DNA of 64,000 nucleotides from Panulirus ornatus (taxonomy: Eukaryota > Arthropoda > Malacostraca > Decapoda > Palinuridae), in the NCBI RefSeq assembly GCF_036320965.1, contig NC_092262.1, forward strand, positions 6,129,072-6,193,071. The letters run 5' to 3'. Within the stretch, counting starts at the first letter, position 1, and each line of letters opens with the position of its first letter. The notes beneath the pieces were generated by a model, which was given only the letters and a program-made list of their open reading frames with translations, did no database searches and was not told where the DNA came from. Shown here piece after piece: positions 32,206 through 62,762 of the stretch. The translations under genes were made by a program, and so were the position numbers.

Positions 32206-32340
32206 GACACGGGAGCTGCTTGATGCTAGGGTCCTCACAGATGGCTGTGTGCAGGAAACAGTCATTGATGTACGAATTTGCCTTGTTGTCACACACCGGG
32301 TTCCACATGATGGGGCATTCCTTGAGGCAGTATGGCGGAT
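32206..32340 (-). CDS. Kazal inhibitor gene A, exon 7 (Kazal domain 6, 135-bp type)
   Basis: Six-cysteine Kazal domain: YCLKEC, PIMWNPVC, SYINDC, AIC and LPC. Acceptor CTCAACAG at 32341-32348 and donor C|GTAAGT at 32205-32204, phase 1 at both ends, 45 codons. Predicted P1 is Ile (PI after Cys2). It is the most 3' domain of gene A found here. If the donor is used, a further exon lies to the left and was not found. If it is not, the frame continues RKYKHHNVPC and ends SVAPLGW at a TAA (32135-32137), so this exon may itself be terminal. The domain is closest to those at 35371-35505 and 40219-40353. Confidence 0.8.
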
Positions 32341-32668: not shown

Positions 32669-32848
32669 CAAAACATAAAAATGCGAACTAAACACTAGGT
32701 GAATATACTGTACATAAAAATGCGAACTAAACACTAGGTGAATATACTGTATATAGAAATGCGAACTAAACACTAGGTGAATATACTGTACATAGAAATG
32801 CGAACTAAACACTAGGTGAATATACTGTACATAGAAATGCGAACTAAA
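32669..32848. repeat. 39-bp minisatellite, about 4.6 copies
   Basis: The unit begins ATGCGAACTAAACACTAGGT and continues GAATATACTGTACATAGAA. It is intronic. Confidence 0.95.
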
Positions 32849-33132: not shown

Positions 33133-33279
33133 CCCTGCATTCGCCCGTGTGTTGGTATTTGACCGAAGGGTCGATGCATTGGACGTTTTCCAGTTCACAT
33201 AGGTTACTGTAGGTGTTGCCATCCGTTCCACACACAGGACTATTGGTCACGAAGCAGGTTTGGATACACTTCTTGAAAT
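33133..33279 (-). CDS. Kazal inhibitor gene A, exon 6 (Kazal domain 5, 147-bp type)
   Basis: Kazal domain FKKCIQTC, FVTNSPVC, GTDGNTYSNLC, ENVQC, HTGEC, with all six cysteines at standard spacing (C2-x7-C3-x10-C4). Acceptor CTCTCTGCAG, donor AGGG|GTAAG, phase 1 on both sides, 49 codons; one residue (Arg) follows Cys6 before the split codon. Predicted P1 is Val, which in the family usually suits elastase-like targets. Most similar to the domains at 39250-39396 and 40828-40974. Confidence 0.9.

Positions 33280-33422: not shown

Positions 33423-33504
<82 letters not shown>
33423..33504. repeat. TA microsatellite
   Basis: About 41 TA repeats directly before a family-2 retroposon. Confidence 0.95.
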
Positions 33505-33508
<4 letters not shown>

Positions 33509-33735
33509 GGGGATAGGGGAGAAAGAATACTTCCCACGTATTCCCTGCGTGTCGTAGAAGGCGACTAAAAGGGGAGGGAGCGGGTGGCTGGAAATCCTCC
33601 CCTTTCTTGTTTTTTTTTTTTTAATTTTCCAAAAGAAGGAACAGAGAAGGGGGTCAGGTGAGGATATTCCCTCTAAGGCCCAGTTCTCTGTTCTTAACGC
33701 TACCTCGCTAACGCGGGAAATGGCAAATAGTATGA
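33505..33735 (+). mobile_element. SINE-like retroposon (family 2), left arm of an inverted pair
   Basis: CCCTGGGGATAGGGGAGAAA to ACGCGGGAAATGGCAAATAG. Very similar to 2121-2344. The inverted partner starts about 20-30 bp later. Confidence 0.85.
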
Positions 33736-33754
33736 AAAAAAATATATATATAAT

Positions 33755-33982
33755 TTCATACGTATTCGCTATTTTCCCGCATGAGCGAGGTAGCGTTAAG
33801 AACAGAGGACTGAGCCTTTGAGGGGATATCCTCACTTGGCCCCCTTCTCTGTTCCTTCTTTTGGAAAAATTTAAACGGGAGGGGAGGATTTCCAGCGCCC
33901 TCGGCTCCCTCCCCTTTTAGTCGCCTTCTACGACACGCAGGGAATACGTGGGAAGTATGCTTTCTCCCCTATCCCCAGGGAT
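33755..33982 (-). mobile_element. SINE-like retroposon (family 2), right arm of an inverted pair
   Basis: Reverse orientation: TATTCGCTATTTTCCCGCAT to CTCCCCTATCCCCAGGGATA. With 33505-33735 it forms a near-palindrome with arms of about 220 bases, in the intron between Kazal exons 4 and 5 of gene A. Confidence 0.85.
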
Positions 33983-33994
33983 AGCAATGATATA

Positions 33995-34796: not shown

Positions 34797-35325
34797 ACCT
34801 CACACAGACAACCACAGCATTGACTGCATCGCAGTGGTCACCTAACACAGCCACAGCATTGACTGCATCGCAGTGGTCACCTAACACAGCCACAGCATTG
34901 ACTGACACAGCATTGTCACCTAACACAGCCACAGCATTGACTGCATCGCAGTGGTCACCTAACACAGCCACAGCATTGACTGCATCGCAGTGGTCATCTA
35001 ACACAGCCACAGCATTGACTGACACAGCATTGTCACCTAACACAGCCACAGCATTGACTGCCACAGCATTGTCATCGCAGTGGTCACCTAACACAGCCAC
35101 AGCATTGACTGCATCGCAGTGGTCACCTAACACAGCCACAGCATTGACTGCATCGCTGCGGTCACCTAACACAGCCACAGCATTGACTGCATCGCAGTGG
35201 TCACCTAACACAGCCACAGCAATGACTGCATCGCAGTGGTCACCTAACACAGCCACAGCATTGACTGCATCGCAGCGGTCACCTAACACAGCCACAGCAT
35301 TGACTGACACAGCATTGTCATCGCG
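34797..35325. repeat. 39-bp minisatellite next to Kazal exon 4
   Basis: Unit CACAGCATTGACTGCATCGC + AGTGGTCACCTAACACAGC, about 14 copies, with a shorter variant (TGACACAGCATTGTCACCTA). The unit is a multiple of three, so long frames exist on both strands, but no splice or start evidence supports coding. The array ends 46 bp from the donor of Kazal exon 4. Confidence 0.95.
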
Positions 35326-35370: not shown

Positions 35371-35505
35371 CGCAAAAGACTGGTGTCAACATGGGGTCCT
35401 TACACATGGCTGTGAACAGGAAGCAGTCATTCATGTGTATATTTCCTCTGCTGTCACAGGCCTTGTCGTCAACTGAGGGGCAGGACCTCTGACATCGGTC
35501 TTTAT
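35371..35505 (-). CDS. Kazal inhibitor gene A, exon 5 (Kazal domain 4, 135-bp type)
   Basis: Six cysteines: DRCQRSC, PSVDDKAC, IHMNDC, TAMC, PVFC. Acceptor GTTCACAG, donor G|GTAAGT, phase 1 at both ends, 45 codons. Predicted P1 is Ser. It departs from the family: the usual PVC before Cys3 is KAC, the aromatic Tyr before Asn is His, and two acidic residues follow P1. It may therefore be a weak or non-inhibitory domain (inference). Confidence 0.85.
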
Positions 35506-36714: not shown

Positions 36715-39253
36715 CCACGTTCCTCACCTCTATAGTGAAGCACAGACTCCACACGTTCCTCACCTCTATAGTGAAGCACAGAATCCACACGTTCCTCACC
36801 TCTATAGTGAAGCACAGACTCCACACGTTCCTCACCTCTATAGTGAAGCACAGACTCCACACGTTCCTCACCTCTGTAGTGAAGCACAGAATCCACACGT
36901 TCCTCACCTCTGTAGTGAAGCACAGAATCCACACGTTCCTCTATAGTGAAGCACAGACTCCACACGTTCCTCACCTCTGTAGTGAAGCACAGACTCCACA
37001 CGTTCCTCACCTCTGTAGTGAAGCACAGACTCCACACGTTCCTCACCTCTATAGTGAAGCACAGACTCCACACGTTCCTCACCTCTGTAGTGAAGCACAG
37101 AATCCACACGTTCCTCACCTCTGTAGTGAAGCACAGAATCCACACGTTCCTCTATAGTGAAGCACAGACTCCACACGTTCCTCACCTCTGTAGTGAAGCA
37201 CAGACTCCACACGTTCCTCACCTCTGTAGTGAAGCACAGACTCCACACGTTCCTCACCTCTATAGTGAAGCACAGAATCCACACGTTCCTCACCTCTGTA
37301 GTGAAGCACAGACTCCACACGTTCCTCACCTCTGTAGTGAAGCACAGACTCCACACGTTCCTCACCTCTGTAGTGAAGCACAGACTCCACACGTTCCTCA
37401 CCTCTATAGTGAAGCACAGACTCCACACGTTCCTCACCTCTGTAGTGAAGCACAGACTCCACACGTTCCTCACCTCTGTAGTGAAGCACAGACTCCACAC
37501 GTTCCTCACCTCTATAGTGAAGCACAGACTCCACACGTTCCTCACCTCTGTAGTGAAGCACAGACTCCACACGTTCCTCACCTCTGTAGTGAAGCACAGA
37601 CTCCACACGTTCCTCACCTCTGTAGTGAAGCACAGAATCCACACGTTCCTCACCTCTATAGTGAAGCACAGAATCCACACGTTCCTCACCTCTGTAGTGA
37701 AGCACAGAATCCACACGTTCCTCTATAGTGAAGCACAGAATCCACACGTTCCTCACCTCTATAGGGAAGCACAGACTCCACACGTTCCTCACCTCTATAG
37801 TGAAGCACAGAATCCACACGTTCCTCACCTCTGTAGTGAAGCACAGAATCCACACGTTCCTCTATAGTGAAGCACAGACTCCACACGTTCCTCACCTCTA
37901 TAGTGAAGCACAGACTCCACACGTTCCTCACCTCTGTAGTGAAGCACAGACTCCACACGTTCCTCACCTCTATAGTGAAGCACAGAATCCACACGTTCCT
38001 CACCTCTGTAGTGAAGCACAGACTCCACACGTTCCTCACCTCTGTAGTGAAGCACAGACTCCACACGTTCCTCACCTCTGTAGTGAAGCACAGACTCCAC
38101 ACGTTCCTCTATAGTGAAGCACAGACTCCACACGTTCCTCACCTCTATAGTGAAGCACAGACTCCACACGTTTCTCATCTCTATAGTGAAGCACAGAATC
38201 CACACGTTCCTCTATAGTGAAGCACAGACTCCACACGTTTCTCATCTCTATAGTGAAGCACAGACTCCACACGTTCCTCACCTCTAAAGGGAAGCACAGA
38301 CTCCACACGTTCCTCTATAGTGAAGCACAGACTCCACACGTTCCTCTATAGTGAAGCACAGACTCCACACGTTCCTCACCTCTATAGTGAAGCACAGACT
38401 CCACACGTTCCTCACCTCTATAGTGAAGCACAGACTCCATACGTTCCTCACCTCTATAGTGAAGCACAGACTCCACACGTTCCTCACCTCTATAGTGAAG
38501 CACAGACTCCATACGTTCCTCACCTCTATAGGGAAGCACAGACTCCACACGTTCCTCACCTCTATAGTGAAGCACAGACTCCACACGTTCCTCACCTCTG
38601 TAGTGAAGCACAGAATCCACACGTTCCTCACCTCTGTAGTGAAGCACAGACTCCACACGTTCCTCACCTCTGTAGTGAAGCACAGACTCCACACGTTCCT
38701 CTATAGTGAAGCACAGACTCCACACGTTCCTCACCTCTGTAGTGAAGCACAGAATCCACACGTTCCTCACCTCTGTAGTGAAGCACAGACTCCACACGTT
38801 CCTCTATAGTGAAGCACAGACTCCACACGTTCCTCACCTCTATAGTGAAGCACAGAATCCACACGTTCCTCACCTCTATAGTGAAGCACAGAATCCACAC
38901 GTTCCTCACCTCTATAGTGAAGCACAGACTCCACACGTTCCTCTATAGTGAAGCACAGACTCCACACGTTCCTCACCTCTATAGTGAAGCACAGAATCCA
39001 CACGTTCCTCACCTCTATAGGGAAGCACAGACTCCACACGTTCCTCTATAGTGAAGCACAGAATCCACACGTTCCTCACCTCTATAGGGAAGCACAGACT
39101 CCACACGTTCCTCTATAATGAAGCACAGAATCCACACGTTCCTCACCTCTATAGTGAAGCACAGAATCCACACGTTCCTCTATAGTGAAGCACAGACTCC
39201 ACACGTTCCTCACCTCTATAGTGAAGCACAGAATCCACACGTTCCTCACCTCT
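36715..39253 (-). repeat. Splice-site-bearing minisatellite, about 70 units of 36 or 31 bp
   Basis: On + the unit is CCTCTATAGTGAAGCACAGA + CTCCACACGTTCCTCA (36 bp). On the minus strand (the sense of gene A) each 36-bp unit contains ATAGAGGTGAGGAACG, that is the donor of Kazal exon 3 (GAG|GTGAGG). About 14 units are 31 bp and lack exactly GTGAG. Variants are C/A in AGACTCC versus AGAATCC, and CTATAG versus CTGTAG. The array begins inside the exon 3 splice site and fills the intron side. Long frames with 12-residue repeats exist on both strands but are consequences of the 36-bp unit. Confidence 0.95.
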
Positions 39254-39396
39254 ACATTCGCCCATATGAAGGTAGGAGACGCGGGAGTTCCTGCACTTGG
39301 CGTTGTTCAGCTCACACAAATTGTTGTAAGTCTTGTGGTTGTTGGCACACACGGGTTCATTGGAATTGTGACACTGGCGTTGACACACCCCAGGAT
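39250..39396 (-). CDS. Kazal inhibitor gene A, exon 4 (Kazal domain 3, 147-bp type)
   Basis: Kazal domain GVCQRQC, HNSNEPVC, KTYNNLC, NNAKC, HMGEC; six cysteines at standard spacing. Acceptor TCTCCATGCAG, phase 1, 49 codons. The donor is TGTAGAG|GTGAGG (GT at 39249-39248), which is also the first unit of the minisatellite. Predicted P1 is Asn. If a donor one unit further on were used instead, twelve residues (GEERVDSVLHYR) would be added in frame. Other family members end their exon directly with G|GTAAG, so the GAG|GTGAGG form is peculiar to this exon. Confidence 0.9.
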
Positions 39397-40218: not shown

Positions 40219-40353
40219 CACATTTGCCCTGCTTGAGGGTTGGATCGTTGCAGATGGCCGCATGTAACCAGCAATCGTTTGTGTACGTGTTACCCTTTTC
40301 ATCACACACTGGCTTCCAGCGAATGGGACACTTTTCCTTACATCGTGTCGTAT
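40219..40353 (-). CDS. Kazal inhibitor gene A, exon 3 (Kazal domain 2, 135-bp type)
   Basis: Kazal domain TTRCKEKC, PIRWKPVC, GNTYTNDC, AAIC, QGKC, with six cysteines. Acceptor TCTTTACAG, donor G|GTGAGT, phase 1 at both ends, 45 codons. Predicted P1 is Ile. It shares PI-W-PVCD, the NDC-LH-AIC core and the shorter Cys5-Cys6 loop with the domain at 32206-32340, which separates this 135-bp type from the 147-bp type. Confidence 0.9.
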
Positions 40354-40827: not shown

Positions 40828-40974
40828 TTAGACATTCGCCCAGGTGACTGTAAGTGATAGACGGCTTGTCGCATTTGGCGTTTTTCAAATAACAGATGTT
40901 AAGGTAGGTTTGGCCGTCGCTACCACATACGGGATCAGACTTCTTGTAACAGGAAGTCTTACATTCGCTGGCCA
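40828..40974 (-). CDS. Kazal inhibitor gene A, exon 2 (Kazal domain 1, 147-bp type)
   Basis: First inhibitor domain of gene A: SECKTSC, YKKSDPVC, GSDGQTYLNIC, KNAKC, HLGEC, six cysteines at standard spacing. Acceptor CTCCTTCCAG, donor CTAA|GTAAGA: one extra codon (Leu) follows Cys6 and then the split codon, so phase 1 is kept; 49 codons. Predicted P1 is Lys, suited to trypsin-like targets. The junction with the signal exon makes a Val codon. Confidence 0.9.
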
Positions 40975-41227: not shown

Positions 41228-41292
<65 letters not shown>

Positions 41293-41403
41293 CAAACTAT
41301 TCGCCATTTCCCGCGTTAGCAAGGTAGCGTTAAGAACAGAGGACTGGGCCTCTGAGGGAATATCCTTACCTGACCCCCTTCTCTGTTCCTTCTTTTGGAA
41401 AAT

Positions 41404-41476
<73 letters not shown>

Positions 41477-41707
41477 TTCTTTCATACTATTCGCCTTTTC
41501 CCGCATCAGCGAGGTAGCGTTAAGAACAGAGGACTAGGCCTCTGAGGAAACATCCTCATCCAGCCCCCTTCTCTGTTCCTTCCTTTGGGAAAAAAAAAAA
41601 AAAAAAAGCGAGGGGAGGATTTCCAGCCCCACGCTCCCTTCCCTTTTAGTCGCCTTTTACGACATGCATGGAATACGTGGGAAGTATTCTTTCTCCCCTA
41701 TCCCAGG

Positions 41708-41771
<64 letters not shown>
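41228..41771 (-). mobile_element. Two family-2 retroposon copies separated by TA arrays
   Basis: Order on +: TA array (41228-41285); partial family-2 copy in minus orientation (41294-41405, ATTCGCCATTTCCCGCGTTA to TTCTTTTGGAAAATTAA); TA array (41407-41474); second, nearly full copy (41485-41708, ATTCGCCTTTTCCCGCATCA to CTCCCCTATCCCAGGGA); TA array (41709-41771). All lie in intron 1 of gene A. Confidence 0.8.
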
Positions 41772-42060: not shown

Positions 42061-42146
42061 CTTCCGTAGAGACGGTTGTAGCTCCCAGGAGCAGCGAGAG
42101 CAACAAGGGCGTGACGTGCATCCTTCGTATCCTTCGCTCCAGACAC
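42061..42146 (-). CDS. Kazal inhibitor gene A, exon 1 (signal peptide)
   Basis: Begins after the acceptor TTTCCTGCAG, with a 25-base untranslated lead. ATG at 42121-42119 opens MHVTPLLLSLLLGATTVSTE, a short classical signal peptide. After 20 codons plus one base comes the donor G|GTATGT, phase 1, which fits the two-base start of Kazal exon 2 (40974). Together with six Kazal domains this predicts a secreted protein of at least 302 residues. An untranslated first exon must lie upstream; a candidate promoter is at 43485-43550. Confidence 0.8.
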
Positions 42147-47922: not shown

Positions 47923-48072
47923 CACATTCCCCGTCGCTCAACTTCGTGATGGAGGCATCCATACACCTGGCATTGTTAAGCTCACAGTCGTTGCTATACG
48001 TATTGCCGTCACTACCACACACGGGAGAGTATTGTTCGTCGCAAGTGGTTGGACACTCCACTAGCCTCGTAC
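47923..48072 (-). CDS. Kazal inhibitor gene B, Kazal domain 1 exon
   Basis: Kazal domain LVECPTTC, DEQYSPVC, GSDGNTYSNDC, NNARC, SDGEC; six cysteines, standard spacing, 50 codons, phase 1 at both ends. Acceptor CCCCGACAG, donor G|GTAAGC. Predicted P1 is Glu. Spliced to the signal exon at 48926 it recreates a Cys codon (T + GT) at the junction, giving EDGKCTRLVEC. Signal exon, this exon and the last exon together make 456 coding bases, a protein of 151 residues. Confidence 0.85.
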
Positions 48073-48637
48073 CTGTCGGGGTAAGAAGTGTTAGTGAACT
48101 TTGGTGCTTCATGACTAGAAGCTTACCAGTTATTATTGGTACTAATGGTGGCTCTAGGTCCTTGATGACCCATAACTAGTTGTGTGTATGATTGTATAAA
48201 CATAACAGAGACAAACTCTTCGAACTGAACCAGATTTTGCTCTTTATGTTTGGTGTACGCTATGGATACGCTTTCGGCTGTGACTCGCACACTGCTCAAA
48301 CTTGTCAACAAAAAGACAAAGCTCAAGTAGCATTTACAAATGAAAAGTGATATAAACATACCGTTAAAGTTAGCAATATTAAGAGGCTTGATAGTTCATG
48401 ACGGGATTGTCTGACTTGGTTTCCAAAAAAATAGGATTGCAAAACAGGAGGCATTTCGCCATATGACATTAAAATGTTTTAATTTTGGCACCGGTATAAT
48501 GTGAGTATCACTGGAGTGGTCAGGAGGTGTTTGAGTATTGGATTTTTTTTTTTTTAAGCACGATATTGAAGGCGAGGGTCAAGAAGCAAGTCATGAATGC
48601 GCTAAACGTAGTTCTACAGGTTGTTGAAGTAGCTTAT

Positions 48638-48764
48638 CGCACACGCCACCGCTCTGTTCAGGAGCTACACTGGTAGCATCTGAAGGTGCAGTCGTTGCCG
48701 TAAGTTATGCCGTGGGTTGCACACACAAGGGCGTAATCGTGAGAACAGTCAGTAGGGCACGATA
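48638..48764 (-). pseudogene. Decayed Kazal exon in gene B
   Basis: The acceptor ATTACCAG is intact (phase 1) and the first five cysteines are in place: SCPTDC, SHDYALVC, ITYGNDC, TFRC. Right after Cys5 the frame breaks: omitting one T restores TSVAPEQSGGVC, ending in a Cys6 codon plus G exactly as in sibling exons, but there the donor reads G|ATAAG instead of G|GTAAG. As it stands the frame ends YQCSS with a stop at 48658-48660. It is therefore a Kazal exon that lost both frame and 5' splice site. If it were ever included as a terminal exon it would give a short inhibitor of about 78 residues. Confidence 0.7.
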
Positions 48765-48925
48765 CTGGTAATTTCAAGACATCTGAGTTGACAGAAGAGT
48801 GATGTGAATAGGTTTAGGGATGGGTGTATGCGGCCTGGGAGCTCAGGAGTGGGTGTAGCGCATTTTCTATCACAAGCAACAATGTTAGGGAAGTTTGCAC
48901 TTGCTCCGACTCCTCCGAGACTCAC

Positions 48926-49074
48926 ATTTCCCGTCCTCATAGAAGTAGTTCTGTGGGCAGGACAGACGCTTTCTATGAACACCTGCCTCAGCCGTTGCCA
49001 CAGACAACCCCAGCGCCAACGCAGCTACCACGATCACCAGGCCATTGCAGCCCATTGCCGTCACCCCGATAAGC
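48926..49074 (-). CDS. Kazal inhibitor gene B, exon with signal peptide
   Basis: Exon after the acceptor CTCCACAG. ATG at 49055-49053 opens MGCNGLVIVVAALALGLSVA, a strong signal peptide with likely cleavage near ATAEA, then GVHRKRLSCPQNYFYEDGK. 43 codons plus one base, donor T|GTGAGT, phase 1. An upstream in-frame ATG (49097) lies across the acceptor and is not used if the intron is spliced. The segment contains one cysteine, and a second one is created at the splice junction with the exon at 48072, so a small extra disulphide is possible. Confidence 0.8.
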
Positions 49075-49464
49075 CTGTGGAGTTTAAACATGTTCACGTC
49101 CCAAATGAATGTGTAGCTAACACTGATGATATACCGTGTGAAGAGTTACGTACGGAATTAAGGATATTGATACATATTAGGAAATTTACAACAGCGAGAA
49201 TCTCTATCGAGAGAAAGTTACTCGTACAATTTAAGTTATCCTTATCAAATTATGATTACAGCCTTACCAAGTTATTATACAGCTTTGAGGCTGCACTCCG
49301 AGAGAAAAGTTCCTCGACAACTTGGAACTTTTGATTCATTGCTTTCGTTCACATTCAGTTGTATGATTGGAAATTCACTTGAAGCAGATCGCACCCGAAG
49401 TACCAGGTAGAACTCGAAGGTCGACATCCACCACACATTATTTCTCAAGAAGAGAATGCGATAC

Positions 49465-49575
49465 CTCACCTTAATGGGCGCAGGCGGGGAAACAAAAAAT
49501 GTGGATGTTCCATCATCCACTGCAGGTGAGCGAGTGGGAGTGAGTGTAGTGGGAGAGACTCTTTTATGTTTAGAC
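49465..49575 (-). promoter_or_regulatory. Weak candidate promoter and first exon of gene B
   Basis: On the minus strand AAACATAAAAGAG (TATA-like, about 49560-49570) precedes a CACTCACTCCC stretch and, about 70 bases later, the donor CATTAAG|GTGAGG. It would fit an untranslated exon spliced to 49074. Speculative. Confidence 0.25.
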
Positions 49576-51009
49576 TATCATCCAAGGCTGGAAATATTCA
49601 GCGACCATGTGGGGAATATTCGTGTCGGGGTTTGCTGTTCTTGGGACGTCAATATAAGCTGTGTCAACGTATCAGTAGCTCTGTAATTACATACAGCTAG
49701 GAAAACCTGACGAGAATTACTGTTATTTTCTCTCTTGGAGGTAAATCGGAAATGGCAACTGACATTGTAGCTTAAGGCAAGTGGGTCAGGTTTTGAGAAC
49801 CTAGGAGAGCTATAAGTCGGACCGCTTTCGACGTAACCTCTGACAGAGCTTAAAAACGATTGTTCGGACAGGAGATGCCAAGAGAACTTAGGCGAAGAAA
49901 TTTAAGCGAGATTTAAGTAGGCCTGTGGCGCTTGTAAGGTCAAGGTAACAGGACTACCCCAGTAGAACCCGTTTTGATGAGACAGAAAGCAAGACCAGCA
50001 ATCCTCACATAGTGGGTGTAAAAGATGGTTCAGGACGGTATTTCAACCAATGGTGGCTGCTGTCAACAGCCCTACTACCCCAAGAAAATGTTTCAAAAGT
50101 AGGAACGGGATATTTGTGTAGTTAGCTAGGGTGTTTGGGAGGGGGCAATACTCTACCACATGAGTGTAAGGAGTTTTCCCTGTTGATTATGAACTTAGGG
50201 TTGCTTTGTTGTTTAGGAGGTCATTAATGCCTGTTATTACGTATTACATTTTAAAAAAGATTTTGTGAGTACTCTCTTCGCATTTATTAGGTATTTGTCA
50301 GCTGTGGGAAGCGTTATGAGATATTTTCCATGATTATTTCCAGTATAGAAGCATTTCATAACGTTATAGTATGATTTAAAGCAAAATATTTTTGGATGGT
50401 TTTAGTCGGAATTCAACGGACGCTCATGGGCTATTGTGATGTCATATCAGACTTCTTTTCTCTGTTGTTATTGTCCTGTATTCTGCTGTTATGCCCTGCA
50501 AGAGATCTCACGTCCCATGCACTACTGCAGTATGCTTTCTCATTCATGATAAGTCTGGGGTTCACATGTGGACATGCACGTCACATATGGCGTTGTTTAC
50601 AAAGCTCATGGTAGTTTGAATGCAACGAGTGGTGTTACGGGCCAGACCGCGCTGGATTATTGATCGCATTTAAACTTCATTACCTGTGTCCTGTGTGTTG
50701 CACCCAGGTGTATGTATGTATGTGTGTGTGTACGTCAGTGGGCTAATGTTACAGGGAAGGTTGACAGATGAATTGGAAGTGGGAAAAACTACAAGAGTTG
50801 TGATTGAGGGATGATATTCATCGCGAAGAGTTAAACACTGAAGTGGCCAGAAGGATAATTTTTGGGGGGACCTTACTTTGTCCATGATTTTCGTCAGTGA
50901 GACTGGTCAGTTGATGCCAGAAAGAAACCTCATATCTCGTCTTTCATCACTGTCGCATGTCAAGGCTAAGCTAGTTGGCATGTGGGAAAGAACAGGTTGA
51001 AAAACAAAA
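49576..51009. other. Spacer between genes B and C
   Basis: No exon, mobile element or tandem array recognised apart from a short GTAT/GTGT run near 50710-50730. Confidence 0.45.
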
Positions 51010-51026
51010 TCTAATAAAATAATATT

Positions 51027-51032
51027 TTTATT
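51027..51032 (-). terminator. Likely polyadenylation signal of gene C
   Basis: CAATAAAAAT on the minus strand, about 240 bases after the gene C stop codon. It defines a 3' untranslated region of about 250-260 bases. Confidence 0.55.
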
Positions 51033-51270
51033 GTAACAAGTGTTGTTTTCTGCAGAGATCAATGCTATGTAGAATCCTATTTTTAAGACTGAGAAAACAC
51101 GTCAAACCAGGTAAGGTGTTGACAGGTTGCGTTAGTGAGGTGAGGTATGGCGGGCCCCGCGAATAGTTGTTAATAGGCTAGCTTGAGTCCCTTCTATCGG
51201 AAAGCGAGACTAATTCAGCGACCAGGTGGCTTCACTCCTGCCACCACTGCTCTACGAACGGATGAATGCC

Positions 51271-51275
51271 TTATC
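51271..51275 (-). CDS. Kazal inhibitor gene C, last exon (five coding bases)
   Basis: A strong acceptor (TAATGCGTTTCTTTTCAG) is followed by GATAA: the split codon A+GA gives Arg and TAA stops. The protein would end GSCR. The acceptor quality and the polyadenylation signal 240 bases on support it. Reading through the donor of the exon at 51491 would instead end CSKS, so both outcomes give almost the same C-terminus. Confidence 0.6.
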
Positions 51276-51490
51276 CTGAAAAGAAACGCATTATAATTAG
51301 GGTACAGCGTATACGACTATGAAACTTGATTGATTTATTTCACGTATAAGAATCATCTGGTGTTACTAACAGCCATTCTATTATTAACATTGATACACCT
51401 TTTCCTGCCTTCTTCCCTGACTCCTCAATGTAACCAGCCATTTTCTCAAGCCATCCAGACAACCTCCCTCAAATAAACCTCAGGACTTAC

Positions 51491-51655
51491 TACACGACCC
51501 ATTGTAGAGCTTGGTGAGGTTGGGCTCTTGGCAGGCCGCGTTGCGGAAGGTGCAATCGTTGCTGTATGTGACTTTGTCGCTGCCGCACAGTGGCGCGTAT
51601 GTGAACGGACACTCTTGGATGCACTTGCTGCTGCTGCTGCCACCCTGAGCCGGAC
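51491..51655 (-). CDS. Kazal inhibitor gene C, exon at 51.5 kb (last Kazal domain)
   Basis: Linker PAQGGSSSS, then the Kazal domain KCIQEC, PFTYAPLC, GSDKVTYSNDC, NAAC, NGSC with six cysteines. 55 codons, phase 1 at both ends, acceptor TTTTTACACAG, donor TGTA|GTAAG. Predicted P1 is Phe (chymotrypsin-like targets in the family). The usual G-K/N/T in GSDGxTY is shortened to GSDKVTY but the spacing is kept. Confidence 0.9.
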
Positions 51656-51679
51656 CTGTGTAAAAAGCGAGATCATCTG

Positions 51680-52110
51680 GTCTATACTGAAGCTCGTGAA
51701 AGTTGCTTTAGATCTTAAGATCCAAGCTGACAAGTTGTTTCAAAGCTGCAAGCCCAAGCTTATATAAATTATTCTAGATTTTAAGAGCTACGCTCGTACG
51801 CTTGGAGGTCCTAGCTTGTAAGTTGCTCTGAGCCGTTAGAATAAAGTTTATAAGTTGTTTTAGGACTTATGATCCCGTTTATATGTTGCTCTAGGCTAAA
51901 ATTTTGAGCTTTATAACTTGTTTTAGGCCTTTAGATCCAGCTTATATGTCGTAGCCTAGGCGTCATGACCGAAGCCTATAACTTGCAAGTTTTTGATATC
52001 CACAATATAGGTTAGCACGTAATTTCCCAACTTACAAGTTAATCTAGGAGTTAAGAGCCAAGTTCGTAATTTGCTCTGATCCTAAGATGTAACATTTTTT
52101 TTTTATGGAA
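51680..52110. repeat. Degenerate tandem repeat, about 40-50-bp unit
   Basis: Repeated TAAGTTG(C/T)T(C/T)TAGG and AAGATCC-AGCTTATA-like segments, about nine diverged units, in the intron between the exons at 51.5 and 52.5 kb. Confidence 0.5.
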
Positions 52111-52494
52111 TCTTAAGGTCACAACTAAGTGCTTTTAGCCTTTACTAGCAGTAAATAAACCACTTACGTATGACGCTACGATTCTTGAGTGCGACAGTAC
52201 ATCCGTTACTGCGTCAGCACGACCACTTGGAAATTTAATCTGACTCAAGGTCACACAATCATATACAAGGGTCGTGCTCGGTCAGTGTTCGTCTCTTTGT
52301 GCTAAAAAGTTCGCACCGTCTTGCTCAAGGTGCTGATTATTCCGCAAGGCAGCTGTCGCTAGGTGAACTAGTAACACTACTGAAGGAACCACTGAGGGAA
52401 AATAAGCTTTTGAAACTCAGGCAAGTGGCCCCTGAGTTGTTCGTAACAGCCATAATGATCCCAGACGGTATACTAGACATTGAGTACCACTTAC

Positions 52495-52653
52495 CACACT
52501 GGCCGTCGGCCACCTTGGTGACGGAGGGGTTACGGCACATGACCCGGTTCAGGAAGCACTGGTTGTCGTAGGTGACGCCGTCGCTGCCGCACACGGGCTC
52601 GTACAAGCGGCTGCAGCTCACTGGACAACGGGGCTTCGCCGTCTGCTGCTCAT
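52495..52653 (-). CDS. Kazal inhibitor gene C, exon at 52.5 kb
   Basis: Linker EQQTAKP, then RCPVSC, SRLYEPVC, GSDGVTYDNQC, RVMC, ADGQC: a canonical six-cysteine Kazal domain. 53 codons, phase 1 at both ends, acceptor TACCCACAG, donor G|GTAAGT. Predicted P1 is Arg, fitting trypsin-like proteases. The exon is clearly more GC-rich than its introns. Confidence 0.93.
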
Positions 52654-53346
52654 CTGTGGGTAGAAACTATGTTTGCATTCTTCTGAAATACTGTATCCGA
52701 CTCTGGCCTTATGCTGAATTACAGTCTTACTATCGTGTAAACATATGTTTATTCCACCAGTGTAATGGTAAATTATGATAACGATTACCTAATCATTGAT
52801 TAAATTCTAATATCGAGCAACGGGGATATCATTAGGGGTCCATTGAATTATCCCCTTGTCACGTCAATCACATCCTAGGGTCGTACCGTCGTGTATTCAA
52901 GGGCAGCATCGTCGAGCTGAAAGGGTCGTATGTTAAGCTCAGCGTCGTATACAGAGGATTAATTTCCTTCCAACGACCTCAGCCATCAAATGTATTTGTA
53001 GCGACTTTCGTAACTTCTCTCATGTTCTGTGTCAATCTTAGCGATCATGACGAAGTTAGGTCATCGGAAACATGGCATGCGAACTACGCCTTGGCTCTCA
53101 TAACCACCATTGGAAACTTAGCTATTTTGGCACATCTTTCGTCTACTGACTAGCCTTACCTGTCGTAGCCTTACGTTGACCTACTGAGCAGGTTTACCAA
53201 TCGGGGAGCTGACCGCGTCATCACCAACTGTACCAAAAAAATTATGGTAAGACAACACTACACAGAGCGCTACTAGGGGGAAATCCATCTTTGAGGATAA
53301 ACATTATTTCCTTCGGCAAATGAGGTGACCCCTTCGCCCCACATAC
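52654..53346. other. Intron of gene C with a GGTCGT-type repeat
   Basis: Contains GTCGTACCGTCGTGTATTCA, AGCATCGTCGAGCTGAAAGG and GTCGTATGTTAAGCTCAGCG (about 52882-52960), a degenerate short-period repeat also seen at 58315-58375 (GGGCCGTCATGCTCAAGGGT, CGTGTCGTGGTGGTCAGGG). Confidence 0.5.
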
Positions 53347-53511
53347 CACAGCGGCCCTCCCTGACGGGGGTTAAGGGCGTGCCTTCCCTGCAGGACATCA
53401 GGTTCAGGAGGCAGAGGTTGAAGTAAGTCTTCCCGTCGGAGCCGCAGACTGGCGAGTACACGCGAGCGCAGGTGTTGGCGCACGGCGGCTTCGGCTCTGG
53501 TGTAACGGCTG
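53347..53511 (-). CDS. Kazal inhibitor gene C, exon at 53.4 kb
   Basis: Linker AVTPEPKP, then PCANTC, ARVYSPVC, GSDGKTYFNLC, LMSC, REGRC: canonical Kazal, six cysteines, 55 codons. Donor G|GTATGT. The acceptor is a tandem NAGNAG (TTCAGCAG): using the second AG removes one Ala codon without changing phase, start 53508 instead of 53511. Predicted P1 is Arg. Confidence 0.93.
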
Positions 53512-53781
53512 CTGAACGGGACAGTATGTTACAACTTGCCTTATCTATCGACTCATCTCTATGTCTATTTACTGGTTGTGGCAAAGTGTGGTCACGGATA
53601 CGTTTTAACTATTCAATTTTTTTTTATGTATTATTTTTTCAGAGGAGAGCAAGGCCAACTTTGTTATAGTTATTTAACGCAAGCATATGCAATATGAGTT
53701 TCCAAAGAACAGTAGTGGAAGCTATGACTTAAAAACTAGTTTGATTAACGAGAAATATCTTGCTATGAAGGAAAGGTTGAG

Positions 53782-53784
53782 ATA

Positions 53785-53806
<22 letters not shown>
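53782..53806. repeat. Short TA array at a LINE tail
   Basis: About 12 TA repeats directly before the poly(T) of LINE copy 5. Confidence 0.9.
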
Positions 53807-53824
<18 letters not shown>

Positions 53825-55741
53825 TTTTTTATACTTTGTCGCTGTCTCCCGCGTTTGCGAGGTAGCACAAGGAAACAGACGAAAGAAATGGCCCAACCCC
53901 CCCCCCCCATACACATGTACATACACACGTCCACACACGCAAATATACATACCTACACAGCTTTCCATGGTTTACCCCAGACGCTTCACATGCCTTGCTT
54001 CAATCCACTGACAGCACGTCAACCCCTGTATACCACATGACTCCAATTCACTCTATTTCTTGCCCTCCTTTCACCCTCCTGCATGTTCAGGCCCCGATCA
54101 CACAAAATCTTTTTCACTCCATCTTTCCACCTCCAATTTGGTCTCCCTCTTCTCCTCGTTCCCTCCACCTCCGACACATATATCCTCTTGGTCAATCTCT
54201 CCTCACTCATTCTCTCCATGTGCCCAAACCATTTCAAAACACCCTCTTCTGCTCTCTCAACCACGCTCTTTTTATTTCCACACATCTCTCTTACCCTTAC
54301 GTTACTTACTCGATCAAACCACCTCACACCACACATTGTCCTCAAACATCTCATTTCCAGCACATCCATCCTCCTGCGCACATCTCTATCCATAGCCCAC
54401 GCCTCGCAACCATACAGCATTGTTGGAACCACTATTCCCTCAAACATACCCATTTTTGCTTTCCGAGATAATGTTCTCGACTTCCACACATTTTTCAAGG
54501 CTCCCAAAATTTTCGCCCCCTCCCCCACCCTATGATCCACTTCCGCTTCCATGGTTCCATCCGCTGACAGATCCACTCCCAGATATCTAAAACACTTCAC
54601 TTCCTCCAGTTTTTCTCCATTCAAACTCACCTCCCAATTGACTTGACCCTCACCCCTACTGTACCTAATAACCTTGCTCTTATTCACATTTACTCTCAAC
54701 TTTCTTCTTCCACACACTTTACCAAACTCAGTCACCAGCTTCTGCAGTTTCTCACATGAATCAGCCACCAGCGCTGTATCATCAGCGAACAACAATTGAC
54801 TCACTTCCCAAGCTCTCTCATCCCCAACAGACTTCATACTTGCCCCTCTTTCCAGGACTCTTGCATTTACCTCCTTTACAACCCCATCCATAAACAAATT
54901 AAACAACCATGGAGACATCACACACCCCTGCCGCAAACCTACATTCACTGAGAACCAATCACTTTCCTCTCTTCCTACACGTACACATGCCTTACATCCT
55001 CGATAAAAACTTTTCACTGCTTCTAACAACTTGCCTCCCACACCATATATTCTTAATACCTTCCACAGAGCATCTCTATCAACTCTATCATATGCCTTCT
55101 CCAGATCCATAAATGCTACATACAAATCCATTTGCTTTTCTAAGTATTTCTCACATACATTCTTCAAAGCAAACACCTGATCCACACATCCTCTACCACT
55201 TCTGAAACCGCACTGCTCTTCCCCAATCTGATGCTCTGTACATGCCTTCACCCTCTCAATCAATACCCTCCCATATAATTTACCAGGAATACTCAACAAA
55301 CTTATACCTCTGTAATTTGAGCACTCACTCTTATCCCCTTTGCCTTTGTACAATGGCACTATGCACGCATTCCGCCAATCCTCAGGCACCTCACCATGAG
55401 TCATACATACATTAAATAACCTTACCAACCAGTCAACAATACAGTCACCCCCTTTCTTAATAAATTCCACTGCAATACCATCCAAACCTGCTGCCTTGCC
55501 GGCTTTCATCTTCCGCAAAGCTTTTACTACCTCTTCTCTGTTTACCAAATCATTTTCCCTAACCCTCTCACTTTGCACACCACCTCGACCAAAACACCCT
55601 ATATCTGCCACTCTGTCATCAGACACATTCAACAAACCTTCAAAATACTCATTCCATCTCCTTCTCACATCACCGCTACTTGTTATCACCTCCCCATTTA
55701 CGCCCTTCACTGAAGTTCCCATTTGCTCCCTTGTCTTACGC

Positions 55742-55745
<4 letters not shown>
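53807..55745 (-). mobile_element. RTE-like LINE copy 5, longest, intact 574-codon frame
   Basis: Poly(T) on + (53807-53830) is the poly(A) tail. A single open frame, 54019-55743, encodes the whole reverse transcriptase: KMKAGKAAGLDGIAVEF, WRNACIVPLYKGKGD, motif A FMDLEKAYDRVD (about residues 207-218), GLRQGCVMSPWLFNLFM, the catalytic FADD at about 317-320, FRYLGVDL, and the C-terminal GRPNWRWKDGV. The N-terminal endonuclease is absent: the copy stops at a TA array (55746-55795). It sits antisense... relative to + and in the same orientation as gene C, inside its large intron. No internal stop suggests recent insertion. Confidence 0.92.

Positions 55746-55795
<50 letters not shown>
55746..55795. 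repeat. TA microsatellite
   Basis: About 25 TA repeats at the 5' end of LINE copy 5; with 53782-53806 they may be the two sides of an insertion into a TA array. Confidence 0.95.
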
Positions 55796-55797
<2 letters not shown>

Positions 55798-56289
55798 ATG
55801 GAGATGTGGGAAGAATGTTAAAGTTGCAAAATGTTAAAACATTTGCAAAAAGCAATGTTATGGTTACCAAAAATCGAAATGCAGGCAGTTTTAACCAATT
55901 TACGTGTTCCTTATATTCCAGCCAGGTTGAAATTTCCTGAACCGTATATGATCATTATATAAGATCTTATAATATCTGCACTAAGAGTAATTATCAATGG
56001 AATAAAACATGTAACGACACCTGGTTTAGTGAGGTACTGATTTGAAACTTGCTCTGATGAATGATAAACTTGCTGGACCTGTATCAAGGTTCTGAGTTTT
56101 TATTTATTTATTTATTTATTTTTAGTAAAATCTGAAGATGTTACAAGGGATCAAGAAGACCCGTCTATCATAATTGTCAAACCATTAAACTAGCGAATCC
56201 ATCGTTCATACATCGCAATGGGCACACGAGTTTTGTTTATATAACATTAATCAGACATTCTAGTTTTACGATTCAAATAAAGTCTAAGA

Positions 56290-56690
56290 TTTCATTTTGA
56301 ATCTTAGATATGACAGATGTGGACCTCTTGAGAGTGATGGCTTAATCTTTTGAAATCCATGACATTCTATGAAGAACGTTAGAAACGATGATTTAATCCC
56401 TTGAGAACACAATTTAATTGAGAACAGCAACTCAATTTCTTGTGAACAATGACAATCCTATGAGATAGATGACTTAATCCCTAAAGATCAATGACTTGAT
56501 AAAGACGATGAATTAATCCTCTGAAAATTATACCCTTCTTTGAGAAAGATGTCCATTTAAAGACGGTGACAGACATTTGAGAACTATGATTTAATCCCTT
56601 GACCATGATGTCCTACTCTAGGTACATTAACAATTTCTCGAGTACGATAAACTCCCCACATTATGACAGTCTTTGAACGATGAAGTAATC
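56290..56690. repeat. Degenerate tandem repeat (GATGACTTAATCCC type)
   Basis: About ten diverged units combining GATGA-TTAATCCCTTGA and GAAC-ATGACATTCTATGA motifs. Intron of gene C. Confidence 0.5.
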
Positions 56691-57375
56691 CCTAATGCAC
56701 GGAAATATAATTTTTTATTACAATGATTCATTAGATTTTAATAGCTGCAATAAGATAAAATCCCTATCTTATAAATGTGTGAGATCAGTTAAATACGTGT
56801 ATATAAAAACAATCACTTTTGATTCTAAAATTTGTTTGGCTTTAGAAATTATAAATGATACTACTTCAGTAGATATTTAAAAGTATACTGCTTTGCAAAC
56901 ATTCAAAAGACACCTTTAAGTTTTGAAGTGTTTCTTTTTTTATATGTACACATTTAGATTAATGAATATGATCCCTTTATGCATGCGCGTTCGTTTTTGT
57001 AAAGAGTCGTCTGTATCTGAGGATCGGTTCCGGATTAGTTAAAGAGCCATGTGGTGCTGGAAAGTATGTCCTGTGCATTATAGTTATTTATCAGTGTTTA
57101 TCAGCATTATGAGAGTAGATCCAGTTGTCTTACATGTTGAGGATATGTAGTAGACTTTAGCGTATCACTAGACTGAGGTGATATCCGTGAAATTCTTGAG
57201 AAAATGATATTTTTTTTTTGTATGGAAAAGTGCGGACAACAATCAAAACATTGGACGGCTTCGACTCCACGCTGCTCATCACGGGTAGCATAGTTCGGGT
57301 ATGTGTCGAACTGAGTTTTGCTCAAGTTAGTGAGTTATTTTTAAGTTCGAACTTAAGAATTACTCCATGTACGTA
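56691..57375. other. Intron of gene C, nothing recognised
   Basis: AT-rich sequence without domain-bearing frames. Confidence 0.45.
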
Positions 57376-57600
57376 ACTAAACCTTGTACTGTGTCAACAG
57401 GTATGCTGAGGACTGGACTCTGCTGTGCTGGGACCCAAGCTAGCCTCATAAAACCATTCCCAGCAGAAAACCAAAATGGCCTCGTGAACATTGTTGTGCT
57501 TAGAAGCAAACTAGACCTGAACCCATCTGTGCTGAGACTCGAGTTACTTTCATGAACCTTACTCTGCTGAGATCCGAGTGAGCCTTATGAACAATCTTAT
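57376..57600. repeat. Degenerate tandem repeat (TGCTGAGACCCGAGT type)
   Basis: About five units of roughly 45 bp: GTGCTGGGACCCAAGCTAGC, GTGCTGAGACTCGAGTTACT, TGCTGAGATCCGAGTGAGCC. Confidence 0.5.
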
Positions 57601-58704
57601 CGTGATGAGGAAGGGAACAGTGTTTGAAGAACACAGATGACTAAGAACACCGAGGAGAGGACCCCAAGGGTGATGAACTCGCTTCGAAGTGGCCCACAAT
57701 AACATGATGATCATCCTGGATCAACACAACGTATATGTAAGGTCGGTAACTGTAGTGTTGAATCTGTTTTGTGATTTTAGTCATCTTTCAGAATTAGACT
57801 TTGACTAACGGTACTTTAATGATTTACGAGATATTTTAATCGTGAAAAATATTCATTGTAAGAAAACTGATAAAGCAAGAGTTTGCGAGTAGTAAATCAC
57901 TAAAGAAAAATGTAATAATTGAATCCTAGTATTATCATATTACAAATTATCACATTAAACGTGGGTTGATTATGTGAGGATAACAACCAAATGAAACTAT
58001 TTCTTCAGTATCACACAAGTTACAGAATTTGTCCTTGAATTTATTCTGAAAGATGAATGTAATATAGATTCTCTTTCCAGTAGATAGTGTTTCTTAATTA
58101 TTCTGTTGTTCTTAAAGGTGTAAGATGTATTTCAATGAGTAGTTTATTTCTGTAGTATTGTGTCAAAAGTTATTTTACATTTATTATTCGAAATGTTTTG
58201 AGAAAATACGTCATTGGATAAGTTGTGTAGAAAGTGCTGTACCCCTTTGAGCCCATTGGTACGACGATAAATCCACTGGATATGTCGGCCTGACCTTTGA
58301 CGTGACCTGGAAGGGGTCGGTCGAAGAACGGGCCGTCATGCTCAAGGGTCGTGTCGTGGTGGTCAGGGTTTGCACAGCAATGCCCAAAAGGTTAAGGTTG
58401 GCCAGTGCATTGCAGTCAACGAAGCAGGTAAGGAAACATATAATGCGGAGAGAGAAATAGTTTTTTTTTGCATGAACAGATTGGTAGGAGGTTCTTGTTT
58501 GTGTTGAAAGTAAGGTAGGTGCAGTGTATCGAGATGGTGAGTGATTCATAACGCCAACATTAGAAGTAAGTATTAATTGTACAGTATAAAGATATAATGT
58601 GTATAGTTGTTTTGTGCCCAGAAATAACATAACAGGGTGGATTGACGTAGAGGGTTTGGCACGGGAATAGTTCTGTTTACCGTCGGGTTACGTTCGTAGC
58701 TTAC
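57601..58704. other. Intron of gene C
   Basis: Mostly AT-rich. 58240-58420 is GC-richer and open on both strands, but shows no Kazal cysteines; its GGTCGT-type core is shared with 52.9 kb, so it is taken as repeat-derived. Confidence 0.45.
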
Positions 58705-58854
58705 CACATGGTCCACTGTTCCGCAGAATGATGGAGGGTTTTTGGCAGCTGGCTGCCTTCAGGGCGCAGTCGCTATCGTACGTGTTGCCGTCCGTGCCAC
58801 ACACAGGCGAGTACACCTCCGGACACACGTCTGGGCATGGCCTTTGTGGTGTAC
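58705..58854 (-). CDS. Kazal inhibitor gene C, exon at 58.7 kb
   Basis: Linker TPQR, then PCPDVC, PEVYSPVC, GTDGNTYDSDC, AASC, NSGPC: six cysteines, 50 codons, phase 1 at both ends, acceptor CTGCCCTCAG, donor G|GTAAGC. Predicted P1 is Glu, unusual for trypsin or chymotrypsin targets but found in Kazal domains acting on subtilisin-like or Glu-preferring enzymes (family knowledge; the target here is not known). Confidence 0.93.
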
Positions 58855-59268
58855 CTGAGGGCAGTCATCAATTAAGCTGTGTGTCACCATGTCGAAGAAC
58901 ATGAGAGTTAACGGGAGAAAGATAAATGACTGAAGAACCACGAGAGCCTTTAGCTCAACACCTGAACTAAACATAGTTTAGGTTCGAGTTAACTCTGTTT
59001 ACTAACGACCATCACGTTGTTAAATATATGCTCTTGGAGCACATATTTACCTCTGAATTAACTGCATTGACATTATTCTTGTGACTTTAGTCTTTTCATG
59101 TTACAACTTTACAAAATTGCATAGATTAACAAGAGCTCAAAACGAGCAGACAAGGAATATGGTGGGCAGGCACTTATGGTATTTCATGTTTAAGGTACAA
59201 TTTGTAGTTTCATGGCTATTTGGCGATGGGCAACTCTCAAACCCGGAGAGACGTTGTAAAATTCTTAC

Positions 59269-59415
59269 CGCATTCGCCGTTGAAGTCCTTCCTGATGGTG
59301 GGGTCCCTGCAGGAGACTTTGTCTAGGGTGCATTGGTTGCCATAGGTCTTGCCGTCTGTGCCACACACGGGGGAGTAATTGGCGGAGCAGGAGGTCGGGC
59401 AATCCTGCTGCGTGG
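59269..59415 (-). CDS. Kazal inhibitor gene C, exon at 59.3 kb
   Basis: Linker TQQ, then DCPTSC, SANYSPVC, GTDGKTYGNQC, KVSC, NGEC: six cysteines, 49 codons, phase 1 at both ends, acceptor ATCATTCCAG, donor G|GTAAGA. Predicted P1 is Ala, fitting elastase-like or subtilisin-like targets. Confidence 0.93.
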
Positions 59416-59439
59416 CTGGAATGATGGTGGAGATGACTG

Positions 59440-59645
59440 ATAAGTTATTATTATTATTATTATTATTATCATTATTATTATTATTTATAAAAACCCCAGG
59501 ACCTATTTCATGGGGTTGATGCAGCTCCGAGGCAGGGAGCAGGGTGTGAGAAGTTTCTTGACTGTCCGTCCACAGACGACAAATACAAACCTCGCCAAAG
59601 GCGACTTCTCGCTCACAGTTGTTACCACTAGTTGGCAGAGCGAGT
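59440..59645 (+). repeat. ATT microsatellite plus CCAGGACCC-family repeat
   Basis: TTA/ATT trinucleotides (about 59446-59485), then AACCCCAGGACCTATTTCAT, GATGCAGCTCCGAGGCAGGG and CTCGCCAAAGGCGACTTCTC, as in the copies at 19405 and 35875. Confidence 0.6.
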
Positions 59646-60986
59646 TGATAACATTTTCTCTATGTTGACAGTGAGGTTAGTGTAATGAGTAATTCGTCAC
59701 AGTCATATGATTTTGTGAAGAACTACCAAAGCTTTGATTTTAAAGGAACTGTTGTGGTTGTGGAATATTGAAAATCACGAGTTTAAAAAACCCACTGTGG
59801 GGAACCTCGAAACCAGAATACTGTGTTGCAAAGTCGGACATGCCGTTCTTTAGAAATATCGTTAGGATGAATTTCCGCATGGCGTGGCTGGCTCCAGATA
59901 TGTAACGGGACACAGTGCCAAGCCTGTACCAAAGCTCATGTATGATCTTCATGGGGAAAAAAATGAGAGTTGTGGGTTTTCGCAATGTGACTTATGACTA
60001 ATATCTCTGCTGCTTGTTGGGGCATTTTTTTTTTCGTATTAGACATATCAGTTGTTGCCACGTTGGATATCCACTTATTTCTAAGTTTATTGCCAGTTTT
60101 TTCAAATTTATTTCTGCATATTTAAATGGTTAGAGAACGATTATTATCTGTGATATCCAGAGATTGGCGTTTATCATTAATTTAAGTAGTCCGTTAAATT
60201 ATGGAAGAGCGTGTCATAATTTGTCCGTTTTCTCTGGAAAGAGATGGCTAATTGACAGACTTGCTGGTTACTTTAGAAGTAAAGTTGTGAATCGGTAATG
60301 TAGCTAGATGATGTGAAAATATCATACAACATATGTGAAAATATCATACAACATATGAGGAGGGTAATCATTATTCCCAAAAATTAAATCTGCTTGTGTT
60401 TGTACACTCAAACAACCGTTATGAGAGTGCATTTGCTTTGTTGTGATTATGTCATTGGAGATAGTTTACAACTATTGCAAACTGTAGTTAATTGAAAGTC
60501 TTCCTTACCAGTGTAAAATTTGCTTTTACATTATTGTAAGATATCGAGGCAGGTAACGTGGTTTTACTTGAGCGCCGTGTAGACTTAGGTTAACCTGACA
60601 ATTCTCTCCTTTATAGTTCGCTAATCCGCCAGATCTCTCCCTGTCCTTGTGGATGAATTTGTGATGCCTATTTCGCGTAAAATATTTAGAAAATGGCTGT
60701 TTTCAGATGCGTATTAAACAGAAAAAAAAATATTACGAATCTAATTTAGAAGATACTCTTGCTGTTTGTGTGTTCGTATGATTACAACCATGAAAATCAG
60801 CCTATTTTATATGAATTCTGAATTGTATCATTTTCCATGGCTGGCAGGGTGTGAGGGGATGGCTTGAGGAACTCCTCATACATTTCGAGAGATATACACA
60901 GGGAACCAACCCCTTTCAGAGCACACCTTCAATAGATACTGCGCAGTTGGCCGTTACGATTTAACGAGTGCGGACTTCGATCTCAC
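59646..60986. other. Intron of gene C, nothing recognised
   Basis: A 23-bp direct duplication (GTGAAAATATCATACAACAT twice, about 60318-60358) is the only structure noticed. Confidence 0.5.
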
Positions 60987-61145
60987 CACATGCGACGTCT
61001 TGAGTCTTGGTGATTGTCGGGTCCAAGCAGGAGGCCGAGTCCAGAGCACACTGGTTGCTGTACGTCTTGCCGTCGCTGCCACATACAGGCGCGTAGATGA
61101 ACGGGCAGTGAGAGGGACACTTTCGCTGCGAGTTGTCTGTCTTGA
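60987..61145 (-). CDS. Kazal inhibitor gene C, exon at 61.0 kb
   Basis: Linker KTDNSQR, then KCPSHC, PFIYAPVC, GSDGKTYSNQC, SASC, DVAC: six cysteines, 53 codons, phase 1 at both ends, acceptor TCTATTCCAG, donor G|GTGAGA. Predicted P1 is Phe. Very similar in its first half to the domain at 51491-51655 (PF-YAP-C). Confidence 0.93.
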
Positions 61146-61476
61146 CTGGAATAGACAAACTAGATATTCTAAGCCTAGGAATATCTCATGATATTGGGTA
61201 TGCATGATCGTTTGGTTATACGCCAGAGTTCTTGGTGCCATTATTCGACACAGCGGCGAGGATACAGAGCATGATTGTACAGAAAAATATTATTTGTGAT
61301 CGCAGAACAAACTTGACAGACGTGAATCCAGAATGAGTGTGATTTCCCTTAACTTTATCTTCAAATATTTACGGTGAAAGTTCCTTTAAAGACATCTTTA
61401 GGTATTACTTTGGCGTTGTACTCTAAAAAATCCAGAACATAGTTAATCCAGAACATGGTTATTAAGGTAATCTTAC

Positions 61477-61629
61477 CACATTCACCATCGTAGAGCTTGG
61501 TAATGGTGGTTGAACTGTGGCAGTTGGTGACGTCCAAGGTGCACTGGTTGCTGTACGTGTTGCCGTCGCTGGCGCACAGTGGCTCGTTGCTGAAGCTGCA
61601 GCTCGTTGGGCATGGCCGTTTCGTAGGGC
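61477..61629 (-). CDS. Kazal inhibitor gene C, exon at 61.5 kb
   Basis: Linker PTKR, then PCPTSC, SFSNEPLC, ASDGNTYSNQC, VTNC, DGEC: six cysteines, 51 codons, phase 1 at both ends, acceptor CTGTTTACAG, donor G|GTAAGA. Predicted P1 is Phe. The usual CGSDG is CASDG. Confidence 0.93.
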
Positions 61630-62679: not shown

Positions 62680-62762
62680 CTATGCAACACATTATTCGTC
62701 ACTTCTGCTGTACCTTCTGGTCGCCGTGAATTCATATTATGAATTTTATGTTACTAGTACCG

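Follow-up and report, generated by a model that had tools for sequence, protein, structure and literature searches.

A 36-bp minisatellite carrying 57 intact 5′ splice sites at the edge of a predicted Kazal exon in Panulirus ornatus

What can be expected of the splicing of an exon whose own 5′ splice site is repeated dozens of times in the intron behind it? The question is raised by a window of 64,000 nt from the decapod Panulirus ornatus (assembly GCF_036320965.1, contig NC_092262.1, positions 6,129,072 to 6,193,071 of the forward strand; positions below are counted from the first letter of this window), in which the third Kazal exon (K3) of a predicted multi-domain Kazal inhibitor gene is followed by a 36-bp minisatellite. 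An earlier note, made from the letters alone, had described this array as a splice site amplified about 70 times that might tune inclusion of the exon. Our analysis located the start of the array at the K3 donor itself, and the sequence gives good support to the proposal that it expanded from the edge of the exon.

Anatomy and origin of the array

Tandem Repeats Finder reported 72.5 copies of the 36-bp unit on the minus strand (91% matches, score 4147) at 36716-39254, one base away from the 36715-39253 of the earlier note. The array overlaps exon K3 by 5 nt (TAGAG) and the 3′ edge of K3 lies within the first repeat, that is, the array starts at K3's own 5′ splice site, the feature tested for donor-bearing exon-edge minisatellites. 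The proposed positions of the K3 donor (GT at 39249-39248) and of the start of the next exon (35505) were both recovered.

A census of AGAG junctions on the minus strand over 39270-36700 gave 73, of which 57, K3's own counted in, carry the intact donor AGAG/GTGAGG (the slash marks the exon-intron boundary or its copy). The amplification is thus present as described, with 57 intact donors and not about 70. At 16 of the 73 junctions the donor has been lost: 14 read AGAG/GAACG and belong to 31-bp units without GTGAG, a number that agrees with the previous estimate, and in two (AGAG/ATGAG) a change of GT to AT has destroyed the site. Which 5 bp the short units lack is ambiguous, since the deletion falls within the 4-bp direct repeat of GAGG-T-GAGG, and for the same reason ordinary slippage could account for these units. 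The array was parsed into 72 full units, 58 of them 36 bp long. The units are of 14 types, which are intermingled without periodicity, no lag being conspicuous after correction. A TATAG unit precedes every one of the 14 deletions (TACAG at 0 of 14, versus 27 of 57 intact or point-mutated junctions, p=0.0005), and this common context points to one or a few deletion events that were copied within the array. TACAG units are also unequally divided between the two array halves (8/36 versus 19/36, p=0.014).

The gene model, which was predicted from sequence alone, consists of a first coding exon and six Kazal exons (K1-K6, Table 1) that alternate between 147 and 135 nt, share one reading frame and are separated by phase-1 introns. 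By length and by eye they look like two paralogous exon sets, K1/K3/K5 and K2/K4/K6. The 30 nt at the start of the K3 intron, anchored at GT, were compared by score with the 1212 GTRA sites that the two strands hold outside the array. The donor flank of K5 ranked first (score 28) and that of K1 second (22), followed by a next best site at 20, while the flanks of K2, K4 and K6 ranked 195, 918 and 987; the first coding exon has a GTAT donor and was therefore outside this set. By simple arithmetic, the chance that K5 and K1 hold the top two ranks at random is about 2/(1212 x 1211), or 1.4e-6. In local alignments the K3 and K5 intron starts reached a score of 23, equalled by none of 500 shuffles (best shuffle 22), and the K3 and K1 intron starts reached a score equalled by 4 of 500. 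The best match to the repeat unit elsewhere in the window was also found at K5, although narrowly (23 versus 21).

The 5-nt overlap with K3 and the first two ranks of the K5 and K1 donors are the grounds on which the proposed expansion from the exon edge is upheld. We read the repeat unit as a donor flank that paralogous introns would have inherited in common and that was multiplied after K3 only. The K3 donor with the first ~30 nt of its intron would have been duplicated at the 3′ edge of the exon, and this minisatellite seed would then have grown to 72 units, presumably by slippage and unequal exchange. Several results weigh against this history. Aligned with each other, the intron starts of K5 and K1 do not score above shuffles (123 of 500 as good), and the sequence past the array resembles neither the K5 nor the K1 intron (equalled by 126 and 135 of 200 shuffles, respectively). 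Signs of block duplication are modest: the longest repeated string comprises six units and was matched by 28 of 1000 permutations, and 4 of 24 lags were at p<0.05 with a best value over all lags of p=0.148. Furthermore, our unit-level tests assume independent copies, which the copies of an array are not.

Splicing outcomes and competing explanations

Donor scores were calculated with a donor weight matrix. Copies in the array score 10.26, tied with K3's own donor at the top of the seven donors of the gene model (the other six score 5.04-9.63). Of the 3617 minus-strand GTs outside the array, 10 equal or exceed this score, two of them within the remainder of the gene span. Judged by their sequence, the array copies are plausible as competing U1 sites.

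Spliced readings were made for all 57 donors, and these stay free of stops through K6 with donors 1 and 2 only. The remaining 55 meet a stop, even though 29 of the 57 extensions are multiples of three. In all 14 of the 55 readings for which its position was listed, the stop is codon 197 of the model and lies within the extended exon; the other stop-bearing readings contain the same stretch. It is the frame shift of the first 31-bp unit (39147-39177) that makes donors 3-57 run into this stop. The expectation that use of the next donor would insert GEERVDSVLHYR in frame holds true for donor 2 (39213) and fails for the other 55, which leaves a ladder of in-frame isoforms unsupported. According to the model one extra in-frame product would be possible from the array, with GEERVDSVLHYR between Kazal domains 3 and 4. 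Since K4 is 135 nt long, skipping it would keep the frame.

We regard it as probable that the array is a largely neutral minisatellite, seeded at the exon edge, with splicing mostly at donor 1, some at donor 2 (+12 residues) and possibly some skipping of K4. Such an array would evolve as a largely neutral repeat of variable length and would spray the intron with donors able to bind U1. Donor 1 should serve most transcripts, and a smaller share should be spliced at donor 2 and encode 12 more residues between Kazal domains 3 and 4. Any use of donors 3-57 would lead to a stop codon, i.e. to truncation or decay, and occupied downstream donors may reduce the inclusion of K4, the skipping of which would preserve the frame. 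A function beyond that of a leaky, mostly neutral minisatellite is, judging from the sequence, unproven.

We saw no sign of purifying selection on the array peptide: seven positions vary among the 58 units of 36 bp, and read by codon five of them change the peptide and two do not, where 77 non-synonymous, 25 synonymous and 6 stop changes are possible in the unit. Nor did we see a sign of selection keeping the donors. Coding selection on GEERVDSVLHYR was considered and rejected; at E<=0.001 the 7994 candidates scored contained no related protein. The array query was one 248-residue open frame, the first part of which is in another frame (EVRNVW...) than GEERVDSVLHYR. Selection against donors near the exon was rejected as well, the 10 donor-less units among the first 36 and 4 among the last 36 not being significantly different (p=0.13).

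A rather unlikely alternative is that the array has a function, as a regulator whose effect depends on its length and which is under selection: the arrayed donors would recruit U1 and tune the choice of the K3 donor or the inclusion of K4. The 57 equally strong donors, as opposed to two GTs scoring that high elsewhere in the gene span, would suit such a regulator, as would the frame-preserving K4 and the case of human ABCA7, for which an effect of array length on the splicing of flanking exons has been reported (PMC5954066). By analogy with ABCA7, tuning of exon inclusion as proposed in the earlier note is possible. However, the donor has been lost at 16 of 73 junctions, 55 of 57 donors are unproductive, and neither donor nor peptide shows signs of selection. 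The array might also be a selected splicing rheostat, in which its length and its mix of donor-bearing and donor-less units set the amount of U1 behind K3; we consider this quite improbable. If true, it would determine how much of the inhibitor is full-length and how much lacks K4, with a 12-residue linker isoform in addition, and inhibitor makeup would be heritable and quickly variable.

That the array is silent, with donor 1 alone ever used and length without effect, is likewise unlikely. Donor 1 does close a normal 147-nt exon, like those of K1 and K5, and an exon extended further along the array quickly grows in length, to 250 nt at donor 3 and more than 600 nt at donor 10, but donor 2 is just 36 nt away and identical to donor 1 over the scored 9 nt, and retention of one unit has been reported for ABCA7 (PMC5954066). 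An assembly artefact, or a badly wrong array length, appears very improbable to us, because 14 unit types in non-periodic order are unlike simple assembly stutter, even if tandem arrays are in general hard to assemble. Recursive splicing, i.e. stepwise removal of the intron through array AG/GT sites, had been suggested by the AG directly before each of the 57 GTGAGG donors and is scarcely credible, since a zero-length 3′ site would end in GAG, a disfavored trinucleotide, with a better 3′ site (CTATAG or CTACAG) 2 nt upstream, and an intron of 3744 nt is short for such splicing. The pyrimidine fraction before the array sites, an unremarkable 0.60 within the 0.40-0.80 of the six Kazal-exon acceptors, speaks neither for nor against it.

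Two further mechanisms were considered and rejected. CUUCACU...GGUGAGG can pair as a 7-bp hairpin at the internal donors and not at donor 1, and the internal donors might in this way be masked with donor 1 left free. Local folding contradicts this: the accessibility of the donor 1 9-mer ranked 57, 55 and 52 of 57 in three settings, and in the first of these the median of the internal donors (0.0077) was similar to that of background GTs (0.0079). The 221 nt at the start of the array did fold more favorably than shuffled sequence (z -2.71, matched by 2 of 200). The other mechanism was protection by U1 from premature polyadenylation; neither AATAAA nor ATTAAA occurs in the 3744-nt intron, and there is thus no obvious need for it.

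The gene and its surroundings

Assignment of the gene to the multi-domain Kazal inhibitors was supported by Pfam Kazal_2 (E=3.6e-35), with five stretches passing on their own. The 27 proteins listed were all at most 36% identical, e.g. 36% for Portunus trituberculatus and 32% for Pectinophora gossypiella; the named relatives include crab, moths, butterflies, wasp, brittle star, sea anemone, sponge and oomycetes. The best solved chain was agrin 8s9p. A Kazal pattern gave no match below 32258, i.e. past K6, and it also missed K4. Coordinates are collected in Table 1.

Table 1. Features of the array and of the predicted Kazal inhibitor gene.
Feature	Positions	Strand	Basis
36-bp minisatellite, 72 full units, 57 intact GAG/GTGAGG donors	36716..39254	-	repeat finding and junction census
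First 31-bp donor-less unit, precedes donor 3 (GT at 39146)	39147..39177	-	junction census, unit parse
Donor 1, GT of the K3 donor, GAG/GTGAGG	39248..39249	-	gene model and donor score
Donor 2, GT of the sole further frame-keeping donor, +36 nt, GEERVDSVLHYR	39212..39213	-	spliced readings
Probable first coding exon, hydrophobic signal-peptide-like start	42061..42121	-	by eye, model only
Kazal exon K1, apparently paralogous to K3; donor flank second closest to repeat unit	40828..40974	-	donor-flank comparison
Kazal exon K2, 135 nt	40219..40353	-	gene model
Kazal exon K3, 147 nt, phase 1-1, last 5 nt TAGAG in first repeat	39250..39396	-	gene model
Kazal exon K4, 135 nt, phase 1-1, acceptor partner of K3	35371..35505	-	gene model
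Kazal exon K5, apparently paralogous to K3; donor flank (33132 downwards) the single-copy sequence closest to the unit	33133..33279	-	donor-flank comparison
Kazal exon K6, 135 nt	32206..32340	-	gene model

Other repeats were found in and around the gene. A second minisatellite (34808-35306, minus strand, 39-bp unit, 12.5 copies) lies about 64 nt into the intron after K4, its consensus holding a weaker donor-like TAG/GTGACC (score 5.5 by the donor matrix), and a further 39-bp minisatellite of 4.5 copies (32673-32848) is situated in the K5-K6 intron. Together with the array, three introns of the gene model thus hold minisatellites. An interspersed repeat was recognized by eye at ~33500-33990 and 41290-41710, in both orientations and beside AT dinucleotide runs; it includes CCCTATCCCCAGGGATA, forward or reverse-complemented, together with a stretch similar to GTAGCGTTAAGAACAGAG. 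At 143-1298 on the plus strand, a 43-bp minisatellite of 26.9 copies has a donor-like GAT/GTAAGT in its consensus (plus strand, score 8.05 by the same matrix). The window held 12 matches to the Kazal pattern, five of which are K1, K2, K3, K5 and K6. The other seven are all on the minus strand (47984, 52556, 53411, 58766, 59330, 61048 and 62600), and the matches across 47984-62689 represent a Kazal gene cluster. No Rfam match at gathering scores and no tRNA was found in the window.

Comparison with known splice-site minisatellites

The array is a striking new example of an anatomical kind that is already known from human ABCA7, CBS and IFI6. The CBS repeat is located at exon 13/intron 13, and the IFI6 minisatellite has a 12-bp unit in 26 copies. 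One of the closest counterparts is the variable number tandem repeat (VNTR) of ABCA7 intron 18, which has a 25-bp unit, begins with two bases that are the exon 18 donor, ranges from ~12 to 427 copies in people, and has been reported with retention of one unit and skipping of exon 19 (PMC5954066). Both are intronic arrays that abut an exon and start at the donor of that exon. They differ in that a retained 25-bp unit is out of frame in ABCA7, whereas the 36 bp of the Kazal gene are in frame, for one step only; the 14 donor-less units and the Kazal inhibitor gene likewise set our array apart.

The CBS VNTR, c.1444_1467+7(16_21), has a 31-bp unit in 16-21 copies, and by its name this unit comprises 24 exon and 7 intron bases, so that a donor should be present in each unit (PMC2630376). 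Like our array it extends across an exon-intron boundary, but its unit is mostly exonic, whereas the K3 array holds just 5 exon nt. The minisatellite of IFI6 (G1P3, 6-16) provides multiple splice donors according to the title of Turri, Cuin and Porter (1995), and its downstream repeat units serve as donors (PMC4526556). It shares with our array units that carry splice donors and differs in the unit itself. Tandem repeats that alter exon/intron structure and activate cryptic splice sites have been described from human segmental duplications (PMC2812944), and an intronic minisatellite has been linked to alternative splicing in C. elegans (PMC4039745); donors within the units were not mentioned in the excerpts of these two papers. 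We found no arthropod VNTR that includes a splice donor in the literature, in a narrow search that does not prove its absence.

The Kazal array provides a very clear natural series, with dozens of identical donors behind one exon, donor-less units interspersed among them, and single-copy relatives of the unit at the K1 and K5 donors of the same gene model. It thereby offers a natural test of how the splicing machinery picks a 5′ splice site when identical ones compete. The array also suggests that minisatellites at exon edges, of the ABCA7, CBS and IFI6 type, are not limited to the human genome.
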